Source: Eisenbergiella porci
GTDB taxonomy: Bacteria > Bacillota > Clostridia > Lachnospirales > Lachnospiraceae
Assembly (NCBI RefSeq): GCF_009696275.1
Contig: NZ_VUMI01000047.1
Coordinates: 1 to 44,688 of the forward strand
Reading direction: 5' to 3'
DNA length: 44,688 nt
The position numbers and the translations under genes are program-made. The notes beneath the pieces are model-generated. The model was not told the DNA's origin and made no database searches. It saw only the letters and a list, made by a program, of their open reading frames with translations. Of the stretch, positions 36,272 to 40,472 are shown piece by piece (the stretch's first letter is position 1; each line of letters starts with the position of its first letter).

Positions 36272-38905
36272 TCAGAAGCAGGAAGTGTCTGGTCCGTCCG
36301 GGGTATGGCAGGATGGATTTTGGGGTTTGCAGATTCGGTTAGCCCTGTGCGGAGGATGGGGCCTGCGGCGTACCCATCTGGCATAAAGGGTGATATCTCC
36401 GGTACTGCCCTGGGGGATTACCGTGACCTGTCTGCCTCCCCCGGGAGCATTATACCAGCCGGAAAAACGGAATCCGGTGCGCTCTCCGGGTGGCAGCAGC
36501 CGGATATCAGGAGAGACGGCCGTATAGGATTCCGGATTGGGATGGGAGCTTCCCTCCAAATTTTCATAGCGGATAGCATATACAATGGGAATCAGCCAGA
36601 CCTGCGTCTGATTTCCGTTCAGCCTTATTTCCCAGCCATCGAAATCCTGAGGCGGTTTCCGGAAGGCATCGGCGTCCTGCTGCGTAAGAGTGGTATGTGG
36701 GGGAGTGCCTTCTCCGGCAATGACAGGCTCTCCCTCCGGATTGGGTGATACATATCCGGAATTGTCCAGCTGTATTACGGACCCGAAATCCAGGCTGCCC
36801 TGAAGGAAGACCACGGCGTCACGATCTTCAATATAAAAACCATTGGTTATATCCCTCAGCCCTTCAATATAGAATTCTCCATTATTATAAATTCCCGGCG
36901 CATAGGACGAGGCCCGGTTCTCCCCGCCTTTGCCCAGCGAGGCCTGGTTCAGCTTATAGACCTGGGAGCCGATATCGTTGTATATTCCGCCGCCCACCCC
37001 CGCCTGATTCAGAAAAATGTCACCGCCTGTAAGAATGGCTGTGCTGCCGCCGTGGTTCCACAGGCCGCCGCCCTGTCGGCGGGCCGTATTGGAGTGTATG
37101 CTTCCGCCCGACATATCCAGCATGGAGCCCTCCGCCAGGCTGACGCCGCCCCCGGACTGCAGGGCGCTGTTCCCTGAAATATCCGTTCCCGGCCGGATAA
37201 GAAGCCGCCCCGGAATACAGCAGATGCCGCCGCCGTGACCGCCGAAACTATTTTCTTTGGCACCGGCCCGGTTATTTTGGACGAGCACTTTGCCCTGAAG
37301 CGTAAGCGTTCCGTTTGCCGTATTGCAGTAAATACCGCCCCCGTTGCCGATACGGCAGGTATTATTAGTGACGGAGGAGGCATCCGTAATCAAAAGGGAT
37401 GCGCCGCCTCCTCCGTTCCAGATGGCGCCGCCGCTGTTATTGATAGCTGTATTGCCTGAAAATGTGCTGTTTTCCACGGAGGTATCCAGCGTCCCGCTGC
37501 CGGAAAAGAGGCGGAGGGCGCCGCCCTCGTAACCGGCCGTATTGGAGAGCAGCCTGGAATTTATAAAACGGACGGTTCCGGTGCTGCCGTTGCTGTAATA
37601 TATGGCGCCGCCGCTGTTGCCGGCCTCATTTTCCGCAAAACGGCAGCCATCCGAGAGAAAAAAGGTTTCGGCCTCACTTCCCAGGAGGATTGCGCCGCCG
37701 CTGCCGGAGGAGCGGTTGGAAAGGAAGCTGCTGTCGGCGGCAGTGAAGGAACAGGCGGACAGGCCGGCGTACAAAGCGATGGCCCCGCCGGAGGCCGAGG
37801 CCTGATTTCCCTCCAGCAGACAGCTTTGAAGATGGATTTCGGAGGGGTGTGCCAGGGAGCGGTTCTGAAGCCACATGCCGCCGCCGCTGCCGGAGGCGTC
37901 GGTGGTGGCTGTATTTTTTATCAGGCTGCTGTTTTGGGCGGAGAGGGAAAAACCTGCGTCGGAAAGCAGATAAAGCATTCCTCCTGTACCGGCCGTATTT
38001 TCCCTGAATACAGTACCGTCGATGCTGATGGAGACGGGCTGCAAAACCGCTGTCAGACAGACTGCACCGCCGTTATTGGAGGCCCTGTTTGCCGATATCG
38101 GAGACGTGGTGGATATTTCAAGCCGATCTCCCGCATTGGCGCTGTAGAAGTAAACGCCGCCGCCATGATATGCGCTGTTCCCGGCAAGCAACATGCTTCC
38201 TGTAAGCTTCAGAAGCGAGGATGCCGCCCCGCCGCTGCGATAGCCGGAAAAAAAGATGCCGCCGCCGGAGGAAGAAGCGCTGTTCCCGGTAATCCTCACC
38301 TCATCGCCTATGGTCAGGGAAATGCCTGCGCCCGATGTGAGGGAATGGCAGCAGATGCCGCCGCCGTTTGCCGCCGAATTATCCGCAATGACTGCGTGAT
38401 CTGAAAACTCCATACGATCATTGGAGGTCCCGGGAAACATGGCGGCAGCGCCTCCGGAGGTTTTGGACACACAGCCTGTAATCCGGGAATTGCCATTCAT
38501 TACAAGTAAATTGGCCAGGGTGGGGGCAGCCTGCAGACAGACGCCGCCGCCTTCCGCCGCAGAATAATTGTTCCGCAGGATACAGCCGTCCTCCAGATAG
38601 AGAGAGCCGCCGTTTACGCAGATCAGAGAACGGTTGGCGCTGTCGGATGCGGAATGGGCAGCCATATCCCCGTCCAGAATAATGTTGTTCAGATGCAGGG
38701 AAGCCCCCGATGCGACACGGAACAGGTTTTGGCTGTAGCCGGCGGCTTTCGTCAGAGCAAAAACATCCGGGAAAAGACTGCTTATGGTAACGTCACGGCC
38801 GACTTCCAGTTGTTTTGTAACAGGGATGTCAGCCGTCAGCTGAATGGAAGGGTCTGTTCCGGCAAGCGCTGCCGAAAGTTCGGATTCATTGGAAACCTGT
38901 GCCAT
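36272..38905 (-). CDS. Beta-helix repeat protein (Pmp/adhesin-like) without signal peptide
   Basis: This is an 877-residue protein. Residues about 60-690 are a right-handed parallel beta-helix built of many repeats with GGG(I/A/V) turns and N-x-A or N-x-S steps (NSAANGGGICC, NSASSSGGGIFF, NEAGNSGGAIYY), resembling chlamydial polymorphic membrane protein repeats. A Listeria-Bacteroides (InlB B/Flg_new-type) repeat follows near 776-845 (FRFSGWYNAPGGG to DITLYARWV). The start at 38905 has AAAGGTGAT before it and an in-frame stop upstream. There is no signal peptide, membrane segment or LPxTG anchor, and the last 32 residues are Pro/Arg/Cys-rich, so the C-terminus may be frameshifted. It is divergent from the retron. 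Confidence 0.75.
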   Translation of the reverse strand: MAQVSNESELSAALAGTDPSIQLTADIPVTKQLEVGRDVTISSLFPDVFALTKAAGYSQNLFRVASGASLHLNNIILDGDMAAHSASDSANRSLICVNGGSLYLEDGCILRNNYSAAEGGGVCLQAAPTLANLLVMNGNSRITGCVSKTSGGAAAMFPGTSNDRMEFSDHAVIADNSAANGGGICCHSLTSGAGISLTIGDEVRITGNSASSSGGGIFFSGYRSGGAASSLLKLTGSMLLAGNSAYHGGGVYFYSANAGDRLEISTTSPISANRASNNGGAVCLTAVLQPVSISIDGTVFRENTAGTGGMLYLLSDAGFSLSAQNSSLIKNTATTDASGSGGGMWLQNRSLAHPSEIHLQSCLLEGNQASASGGAIALYAGLSACSFTAADSSFLSNRSSGSGGAILLGSEAETFFLSDGCRFAENEAGNSGGAIYYSNGSTGTVRFINSRLLSNTAGYEGGALRLFSGSGTLDTSVENSTFSGNTAINNSGGAIWNGGGGASLLITDASSVTNNTCRIGNGGGIYCNTANGTLTLQGKVLVQNNRAGAKENSFGGHGGGICCIPGRLLIRPGTDISGNSALQSGGGVSLAEGSMLDMSGGSIHSNTARRQGGGLWNHGGSTAILTGGDIFLNQAGVGGGIYNDIGSQVYKLNQASLGKGGENRASSYAPGIYNNGEFYIEGLRDITNGFYIEDRDAVVFLQGSLDFGSVIQLDNSGYVSPNPEGEPVIAGEGTPPHTTLTQQDADAFRKPPQDFDGWEIRLNGNQTQVWLIPIVYAIRYENLEGSSHPNPESYTAVSPDIRLLPPGERTGFRFSGWYNAPGGGRQVTVIPQGSTGDITLYARWVRRRPHPPHRANRICKPQNPSCHTPDGPDTSCF

Positions 38906-39108
38906 AGGATATCACCTTTTTTTACATAATACCCTATTGTATGCAGGAGGCGCATAAAAAGAGCCAGTTTCAGGGGAAAACAGAACAAGCAGGAGGAGTG
39001 CCCGGAATGGTTTCAAAATAGAGCAACGGCCGAAGCCCGGGGCGTGAAGTATAATGATGGCGAACTGAGCAGCAGATGTAAAACAAGATGGTAAAACCTG
39101 ACGGACTG

Positions 39109-39117
39109 TGCTAGAAT
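39109..39117 (+). promoter_or_regulatory. Extended -10 promoter of the retron transcript
   Basis: TGCTAGAAT matches the extended -10 form TGn-TATAAT with one change. The -35 (TGGTAA, 39089-39094) is poor, as is common for extended -10 promoters. Transcription would begin near 39124, about ten bases before the first paired end of the structured RNA. The rest of 38906-39108 shows only the leader of the divergent beta-helix gene. Confidence 0.5.
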
Positions 39118-39133
39118 AAAACAAAAGCCGGCC

Positions 39134-39439
39134 GGCAGCATATCCGGGAAAATATTTTCCGGCCTGACGGGGAGTCCCCGCCGGGAGTTAGAAACAGTGG
39201 GCATGCAGAATACTGCATGCAGAATCCTGCACCCGTAATCCGCTCCAAAGTACATCCGCACACTTCCGTGTGCACACCGCCTTCGGCTGTACATTTCCGC
39301 AGCTTACGGTATCGGTGTATTGTGCCGTCCGGCTTATCAAAGCTATAAGCAGCGCGTGAGGATAAAAGAGGAACTGCATGGGATGCTCATATGCGGTTCC
39401 TCTTTTTGATTTTACCGTGAAAATATTTTCCATGCTGTC
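39134..39439 (+). ncRNA. Putative retron msr-msd RNA
   Basis: The two ends are complementary, as expected for retron a1 and a2. GGCAGCAT (39134-39141) pairs with ATGCTGTC (39432-39439), with one G-U. A 13-base block (39147-39159) pairs with 39419-39431, and CGG (39160-39162) with CCG (39415-39417). Between them are compact hairpins: CGGGG/CCCCG at 39168-39180, GCATGCAG/CTGCATGC at 39201-39220, GCACAC/GTGTGC at 39258-39273, GCC/GGC at 39279-39287 and GCTTAT/ATAAGC at 39332-39350. A 16-bp stem (39364-39379 with 39391-39406) near the 3' end is the natural candidate for the msd stem. The branching G and the msr/msd boundary cannot be placed by eye. It lies 47 bases before the reverse transcriptase start. 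Confidence 0.65.
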
Positions 39440-39485
39440 AAGTATTTTTATTGTCCCTGTTTTTACGAAAGGAGGAGGCTCCTGT

Positions 39486-40472
39486 ATGTCAAATTCGCAG
39501 CTTTGGAAATACTGTACCAAAGAACAATGCCAGGACTTTATCCTTTCGTTGGATCTTGTCCCTCACAGCGCCGGTATGAGCAGGGAAAAGCAGCTTGCCT
39601 GTCTTTATATGCTCAGCAACCGTGGAGTGGAGAATTACCATAAGGAGATTCTGACAAAAAAGGATGGCGGGACAAGGACGCTTATGGTTCCCTGCAGCCT
39701 ACTGAAGGCCGTGCAGCGCAATATCCTGCACCATGTGCTGGAGCAAAGGCCCGTATCGGACTGTGCCAGGGCCTATCGGAAAGGCACGGACATCCTGGCC
39801 AATGCCGGGCCGCATACCGGGAGAAAGCAGGTGCTCAAGCTGGATATCAGCCATTTTTTTGACAGCATTCTCTTTCCCAGGGTTATCAGCGCCGCCTTCC
39901 CGGATACGCTGTTTCCTCCGGCCGCCGCCGCGCTTCTGGCAAACCTGTGCTGCTGCCGGGAACGCCTGCCCCAGGGCTCTCCGGCTTCCCCGGCCATCTC
40001 CAATCTGGTGATGCGACCCTTTGATGAATCCATGAGGCGCTGGTGTGAAGCGAGACAGATCGTATACACCAGATACTGCGATGACATGACCTTTTCCGGA
40101 GATTTTGATCCCGCCGCTGTTTATCATAAGGTAAAAAGCTATCTGGAGGCGATGGGATTTTCCTTAAATGAAAAGAAAACAAAGCTCCTGAAGGACGGCG
40201 TACGCCAGAGTGTGACGGGAATTGTGGTCAATGAAAAGCCCCAGGTCTCCAGGGATTACCGTAAAAAACTGCGGCAGGAGATCTATTACTGCATGAAATA
40301 TGGAGTAACAGGGCATCTTGAAAGGCTGAGGGAGAAGACCGGGAATGCGGTGGAGGAGCAGAGGTATATATGTTCTGTCCTTGGAAGAATTCAGTTTGTG
40401 CTGCAGGTGAATCCGGAGGACAGGGAATTTGCGGAATACTGCAGGATATGGAAAGAGCGGTTTGTAAAATAA
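39486..40472 (+). CDS. Retron-type reverse transcriptase
   Basis: This 328-residue enzyme should prime from a guanosine of its own RNA and make a branched RNA-DNA molecule (msDNA). Motifs in order: RT1/2 GGTRTLMVP (61-69), the retron-specific NAxxH as NAGPH (106-110), RT3 LKLDISHFFDSI with Asp120, RT4 LPQGSPASPAISN (161-173), the catalytic YCDD (197-200, where YADD is usual), RT6 GFSLNEKKTKLL, and RT7 with the retron VTG (243-245). QGxxxSP in RT4 excludes a diversity-generating retroelement. There is no fused domain. ATG 39486 follows GGAGGAGG; the frame is open upstream but overlaps the structured RNA. No toxin or effector gene is recognisable beside it. Confidence 0.9.
   Translation: MSNSQLWKYCTKEQCQDFILSLDLVPHSAGMSREKQLACLYMLSNRGVENYHKEILTKKDGGTRTLMVPCSLLKAVQRNILHHVLEQRPVSDCARAYRKGTDILANAGPHTGRKQVLKLDISHFFDSILFPRVISAAFPDTLFPPAAAALLANLCCCRERLPQGSPASPAISNLVMRPFDESMRRWCEARQIVYTRYCDDMTFSGDFDPAAVYHKVKSYLEAMGFSLNEKKTKLLKDGVRQSVTGIVVNEKPQVSRDYRKKLRQEIYYCMKYGVTGHLERLREKTGNAVEEQRYICSVLGRIQFVLQVNPEDREFAEYCRIWKERFVK

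Follow-up and report, generated by a model that had tools for sequence, protein, structure and literature searches.

An Ec107-like retron in Eisenbergiella porci, and the sequence of its group's msDNA as probable chromosomal scars

What kind of retron is present in Eisenbergiella porci, and does the DNA made by such elements ever return to the chromosome? Both questions are raised by contig NZ_VUMI01000047.1 of assembly GCF_009696275.1, the 44,688 nt of which we call the window. A preliminary description of this DNA reported a complete retron. The core of that description is right, because the element has its own promoter, a structured RNA and a reverse transcriptase (RT); the arms, the 3' boundary and the msd had been misplaced. 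It is complete in the Ec107 sense only, as no linked effector has been found. An effector gene belongs to the tripartite defence types of retron and does not define Ec107. The window element is a real retron which belongs to the Ec107 (Eco5) group. The best overall explanation, in which we have considerable confidence, is a stand-alone Ec107 (Eco5) retron together with msDNA pieces which were probably joined into broken DNA. The parts of the locus are the following:

39109-39117, + strand: extended -10 promoter element (TGC TAGAAT), from the sequence and its score against the aligned RNAs
39124-39338, + strand: msr-msd RNA closed by a1 and a2, from covariation and the fold (z -5.1)
39125-39137, + strand: a1 arm, 12 of 13 positions pairing with a2 (helices 1-2)
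39138, + strand: predicted branching guanosine, from the invariant AG of AGC at 39137-39139
39144-39162, + strand: msr hairpin P1 (helices 3-4)
39163-39185, + strand: msr hairpin P2, with loop AGT (helices 5-6)
39213-39322, + strand: predicted msd, a template of about 110 nt, from the ends of orphan copies, the 107 nt of E. coli and the DNA fold
39233-39309, + strand: msd stem, GTAC helix and inner hairpin (helices 7-9)
39276-39315, + strand: part of the msd of which an identical 40-bp copy lies at G000:C62:59804-59843, from a search of the window's own genome (G000)
39323-39335, + strand: a2 arm, from its pairing with a1 and covariation
39364-39413, + strand: terminator-like hairpin and T-run between the RNA and the RT gene (fold z -4.9)
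39486-40472, + strand: retron RT, Ec107-like, 328 aa, from Pfam, PADLOC and the nearest solved chain

We will start with the RT. Its likely start is ATG 39486, which is preceded by AAAGGAGGAGG; a start at 39378 was set aside in favour of it. The retron motifs NAGPH (39801-39815) and VTG (40212-40220), which had already been noticed, are both present in the reading frame. A VTG in region Y is a mark of retron RTs. For region X a NAXXH rule is given in the accessible part of PMC6868368. The box at 40074-40085 is YCDD, described at first as a departure from YADD. It is instead typical of the group, because it is reported for RT-Eco5 (Ec107) in the accessible part of the same paper (PMC6868368). 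The Pfam domain RVT_1 is found with 77 bits. The top PADLOC model is RT_Ec107-like with 459 bits, followed by RT_III-A with 320 bits. These two models also rank first and second in all eight further RTs that we scored: E. coli Ec107 (L119), Budvicia, Vagococcus, three clostridial relatives and two members of a sister clade. By sequence the best solved chain is the RT of Ec86. With the NCBIfam model retron_St85 (NF038233) the window RT reaches 211.9 bits, under the curated cut-off of 235. The genome of the window has twenty RVT_1 stretches in its 6.1 Mb, several of them with broken frames.

Relatives of the RT were obtained by a scan of genome contigs, from which we have kept the best 80 of 187 loci, with identities of 43-74% over the best segment. 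Among these 80 the nearest come from Lachnospiraceae bacterium CE91-St56 and Eisenbergiella tayi, both in the genus of the window, and the group is also present in Enterobacterales. In the family as a whole, 65 of 299 genomes have an RT match at E 0.001, mostly to distant RTs; matches above 300 bits occur at 11 places, the window counted. In E. coli the RNA is present in 373 of 5426 genomes, at one place per genome, which is located between pyrE and slmA among the matches listed and in L119. Every RT match in phage and plasmid collections has less than 60% identity (57 and 194 records), and a collection of viral contigs scanned for one conserved msd pattern gave no match. The sister clade has a shorter RT N-terminus (L057, L058, L060, L061, L062, L070, L074, L082, L100, L101). 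Two of its RTs score as RT_Ec107-like; by eye its upstream RNA appears related, with a GCGAGTCGC-like hairpin and an a2 of the TATTG type. Second complete Ec107-like retrons are found at L172:3076-5236 (G312, the genome of L011) and at L178:1779-4584 (G332, the genome of L039).

The RNA shared by these retrons was recognised by reading the regions 5' of the RT in relatives. Its structure was set on the window sequence and scored over 45 aligned sequences; L090, L096 and L042 were left out, and the row of L119 has no a2. The RNA is conserved from Lachnospiraceae to Enterobacterales, and it is homologous to that of Ec107 in E. coli, since it aligns with L119 and L059 with the structure kept. Covariation is extensive: 45 of the 51 pairs have changed on both sides, in 405 cells. 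A total of 87.1% of the 2210 cells are paired, a value which leans toward the structure because this was derived from one of the sequences. When the 3' partners are slid as a control, 32-46% of the cells are paired and 84-140 show changes on both sides, while none of 500 shuffles reaches any of the observed values of pairing or covariation. The a1/a2 helices (1 and 2) have changes on both sides in 12 of 13 pairs. Helix 6 of P2 is paired in 97.2% of its cells, with such changes in 7 of 8 pairs. The weakest part is P1, whose helices 3-4 are paired in 75.6% and 58.6% of cells.

The region also folds well. Positions 39122-39338 give -89.8 kcal/mol (z -5.1, none of 200 shuffles as good), and 39109-39440, which contains the stretch proposed beforehand for a folding check (39124-39440), gives -126.4 kcal/mol (z -4.9), better than all of 100 shuffles. 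Rfam has no match in the window at gathering scores. The extended -10 which had been placed ahead of the transcript is present, and 22 of the 45 RNAs in the alignment have an element of this score before a1, a level attained by 2% of mononucleotide shuffles. The predicted transcript start, at about 39124, is 7 nt past this element and directly before a1.

The A and G of AGC are invariant across the 45-row alignment. According to the accessible part of PMC6868368, the branching guanosine is found in an AGC next to a1; the predicted branch point in the window is G39138. We predict a length of about 110 nt for the msDNA. In E. coli, the 107 nt which precede a2 stop in the corresponding part of the RNA. 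Folded as DNA, the predicted msDNA (39213-39322) has a stem and two inner hairpins, with -24.1 kcal/mol (z -4.2, none of 200 shuffles as good). How far it reaches on its low side is uncertain, given an extra hairpin of the window at 39201-39220.

In the preliminary description the RNA was closed differently: a1 and a2 ran from about 39139 onward and over 39415-39440, and enclosed about 306 nt with a 16-bp hairpin inside. These arms are formed by a 13-nt exact palindromic complement, GGAAAATATTTTC, and a short block. The complement is real and beyond chance, since none of 500 mononucleotide shuffles reaches even 12 nt, and the arms are part of the minimum-energy fold of 39109-39440. Nevertheless at most 7 nt of it are present in the two closest relatives, and the check by covariation which the description itself had named supports 39125-39137 with 39323-39335 throughout the family, closing an RNA of about 215 nt. 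There is also no room for the earlier arms in many relatives, because the RT begins 14-54 nt past a2 in 43 of the 62 loci with arms assigned by a script, some of them wrong. It is therefore extremely improbable that they are the a1 and a2 of this retron. The distance from a2 to the RT is 150 nt in the window, 105 in L009 and 162 in L010. The GGAAAATATTTTC block is found at 39147-39160 and again 3' of the RNA at 39420-39440; possibly it could pair with P1 in read-through transcripts and act as a switch between RNA and mRNA. As for the 16-bp terminal hairpin, it does exist (16-17 bp at 39364-39406, z -4.9, with a T-run after it), outside the conserved RNA. The whole element at 39364-39413 looks like a terminator; it is unlisted in a simple terminator scan with a loop limit of 8.

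The retron stands alone. We have clustered the ORFs around 60 loci, three to the left and three to the right (four loci are repeats of one genome), and found no widely shared neighbour gene: the largest homologous family is present in 6 of the 60 loci, and in the sister clade no family is found in more than 3 of 31. The neighbours tested in the window are a VOC protein, a MerR regulator, an ABC ATPase, a diaminopimelate dehydrogenase and a large repeat protein. There is some synteny within the genus, since L010 also has a related dehydrogenase upstream. The large repeat protein (36272-38905, - strand) is directly upstream of the retron and has Chlamydia PMP-like and Listeria-Bacteroides repeats.

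Our default guess for the role of the msDNA in its host is phage defence with an unlinked host protein. Alternatively the retron might be a type III-A defence system which has lost its neighbours and depends on an unlinked effector; RT_III-A, the second-best model in every RT scored, points in this direction. We find this doubtful, although it keeps a real chance: RT_Ec107-like fits the window RT better, and the neighbour families are as rare as described above. In place of the phosphoribosyltransferase and HTH genes linked to type III-A retrons, the next genes in the window are those of the VOC protein, MerR and ABC.

We now turn to the chromosomes. When G000 was searched with 39100-39485, it gave the retron locus and one other match, of 40 nt and 100% identical, at C62:59804-59843 (E 2e-13). 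On its msDNA 5' side this copy stops 7 nt short of a2. A joined query with the msds of 37 relatives gave extra msd matches in six of 43 retron-bearing genomes; the census is incomplete because at most 6 candidates were scored per genome. Two of the candidates, L172 and L178, were dropped as they are complete second retrons with RT, and a 24-nt match in G329 was dropped as chance, since nothing in the retron RNA of G329 itself corresponds to it. L. celerecrescens (G313) has a copy identical in 82 of 82 nt, the start of which leaves out the 6 nt next to a2 of the G313 retron. Clostridium sp. 12(A) (G315) has two decayed places, and Lactonifactor (G324) has two pieces, one of 31 nt (100% identical) and one of 39 nt (85%). 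A dedicated search was made with the RNA of L022 (L022:4758-4966, 209 nt) in five Lacrimispora-like genomes. In [Clostridium] aerotolerans (G352) there are 11 places: E is at most 3e-6 for seven, and between 1e-4 and 5e-3 for the four weaker ones. The close relatives G318 and G351 gave no orphan copies in the L022 search. In the E. coli search the 373 carriers showed none. In all there are 17 places in 5 genomes. Most of the copies checked (13 of 15) overlap no ORF, with ORFs picked at 80 aa.

The orphan copies are nearly confined to the msd. Apart from the retrons and from a self-match of 18 nt within one of them, the matches of the 209-nt query are all within positions 59-184, the msd being at about 80-189. 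Three copies stop exactly at position 80, and two whole ones begin at 184. Only one copy (L224) passes position 80, by 21 nt past the predicted msDNA 3' end into msr. The RT gene of L022 (1033 nt) was searched in seven genomes and gave the retron alone, plus one 27-nt match with E 0.004; this control is insensitive for G000 and G324 because it is cross-species there. A tblastn search with one RT found none in the 17 records which hold orphan copies.

Seven orphan sites have been compared with relatives. The site of the 40-nt copy (L138) has flanks which correspond to an intact sugar ABC operon in G303, of the same genus, with 88-89% identity. On L139 the left flank reaches to 4860 and the right one continues from 5135, so that the msd piece replaces 274 bp; the joins have 1 and 3 shared bases. 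On C62 (L138:9616-10388) this operon is cut to six ordered pieces of 44-190 bp, with several deletion junctions in less than 1 kb; four further junctions in this shredded operon have 0-11 nt of filler each. In G313 the 82-nt copy (L173) connects, by nearly blunt joins at either end, two stretches which are separated in G315. At L230 about 42 nt are inserted when compared with G315; the G315 site has a GAT matching the msDNA 3' end, and in two other relatives the site has unrelated sequence. L235 is common to G352 and G315; neither G318 nor G351 has it. In L224 the left homology ends at the copy and the right flank has no match. The flanks of L228 come from two places of G315; their homology breaks off before the copy is reached, at distances of 48 and 78 nt. 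For L234 there is no clear empty site among the flank matches of relatives.

How did these copies arise? We favour, with moderate confidence, the capture of msDNA at broken DNA. This reading is supported by the position of the 40-nt copy at a deletion and of the 82-nt copy between distant stretches, by the empty or copy-free sites of L230 and L235 in sister species, and by the near confinement of the copies to the msd, several of them with shared predicted msDNA ends, while the RT gene gives no comparable copies and is missing from the 17 orphan records. It is weakened by the four low-scoring places of G352, by the carriers which have no copies (G318, G351 and the E. coli genomes), by the msr stretch in L224, by the distant end of homology in L228 and the lack of a clear empty site for L234. 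It is also weakened because G352, which has most copies, and G000 have no Ku match, and because G000 is a draft. The copies could instead be leftovers of decayed retrons or duplications of the retron locus at the level of DNA, not derived from msDNA. Several of them are indeed decayed, L224 includes part of msr, and G312 and G332 do have a second retron. Such an origin is unlikely in our opinion: it has to face the absence of RT near all 17 places, the perfect identity of the G313 copy with unrelated flanks directly outside, and orphan ends which coincide at the predicted msDNA ends. Furthermore there are no pieces of a1, a2 or RT, though the RT gene is ten times longer. For the 40-bp copy of G000 an assembly artefact should also be considered, as this draft has 149 contigs and 4.92% contamination and the site is within the shredded operon. 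The copy is inside a 260-kb contig, its flanks closely match a genome of the same genus, and named isolate genomes carry such copies too, which makes an artefact very unlikely.

If msDNA is captured, end joining comes into question. The survey for Ku covered 39 genomes: 36 of the 43 used with the joined query, G000 and those of L022 and L019. Ku is found in three of them (G313, G315 and G324), all bearing orphan copies. The chance of finding all three among the 5 orphan carriers of 39 is 10/9139, about 0.001, a post hoc figure for related genomes searched to unequal depth. By eye, a gene resembling an ATP-dependent DNA ligase follows ku in the three genomes. G352 and G000 have orphans with no Ku match, and G352 has neither flank of the ku island of G315, save a 68% paralogue. 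Among 14 well-known control genomes, which include E. coli, Ku is found in Bacillus subtilis only. The link of Ku to the orphan copies is suggestive only. In L. celerecrescens ku is located at G313:C10:261334-261861, about 10 kb from the full-length orphan msd on the same contig.

A possible course of events can be proposed. The extended -10 would start a transcript at about 39124, whose ends would be brought close by a1 and a2. The RT would bind the msr hairpins, prime on the 2'-OH of G39138, the predicted site, and copy the msd, beginning near 39322 and finishing near 39213. The product would be a branched msDNA of about 110 nt, with a stem and two inner hairpins. Attenuation at the terminator-like hairpin, which precedes the RT gene, would probably make the RNA more abundant than the RT. 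After processing, the msDNA may be inserted where DNA is broken. Ku and its ligase could carry out this step in genomes which have them, and other end joining elsewhere. We think it fairly probable that Ec107-like retrons are in this way a steady source of free single-stranded DNA, used as filler by end joining in the host and leaving scars, small insertions and rearrangement junctions. With a similar degree of confidence, the ends of the orphan copies would be a record of msDNA ends. Altogether the data suggest that retron DNA can be captured during chromosome repair.

The closest known system is Retron-Eco5 (Ec107) of E. coli. It shares with the window retron the best PADLOC model, the YCDD box, a homologous RNA with a1/a2, the P2 hairpin and a branched msd, and no linked effector has been found in either. 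The msd is predicted at about 110 nt in the window, beside about 107 nt in Ec107. The window retron differs by its phylum, by its site, which is other than pyrE/slmA (ttk), by the extra msr hairpin at 39201-39220, and by the terminator-like hairpin and 150 nt of spacing ahead of the RT gene. Orphan msd copies are present in the genome of the window and in relatives, whereas the 373 E. coli carriers of Retron-Eco5 have none.

Chromosomal sequence resembling msDNA has a precedent in Nannocystis exedens. Lampson and Rice in 1997, and Lampson et al. in 2002, reportedly described msDNA-like repeats in its chromosome and proposed retrotransposition. In the accessible part of PMC6868368 these repeats are described as msr and msd. 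The orphan copies resemble them in being msDNA-like sequence in the chromosome. They differ by containing hardly any sequence other than msd, by their occurrence in five genomes of a different phylum, and by being found at breakpoints, with copy-free sites in sister species. This was the only precedent for msDNA insertion that surfaced in a literature search with most subscription journals outside its coverage. A 2022 review states, in its accessible part, that retrons seem to be without integrative retrohoming (PMC8867640).

The retron of the window is thus a well defined Ec107-like element, the first anatomy of which has been corrected, and the msDNA sequence of its group recurs as chromosomal scars. 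The anatomy of Ec107, fixed by covariation, is extended to gut Firmicutes, and three of its traits persist from one phylum to another: YCDD as the catalytic box, a branched msd and the lack of a linked effector. The orphan msd copies also matter for the old question of whether retron DNA returns to the chromosome. Should breaks indeed capture msDNA, retrons would be mutagens whose past activity could be read from genomes, and unwanted insertions may result when retron-based editing is used in hosts with end joining.
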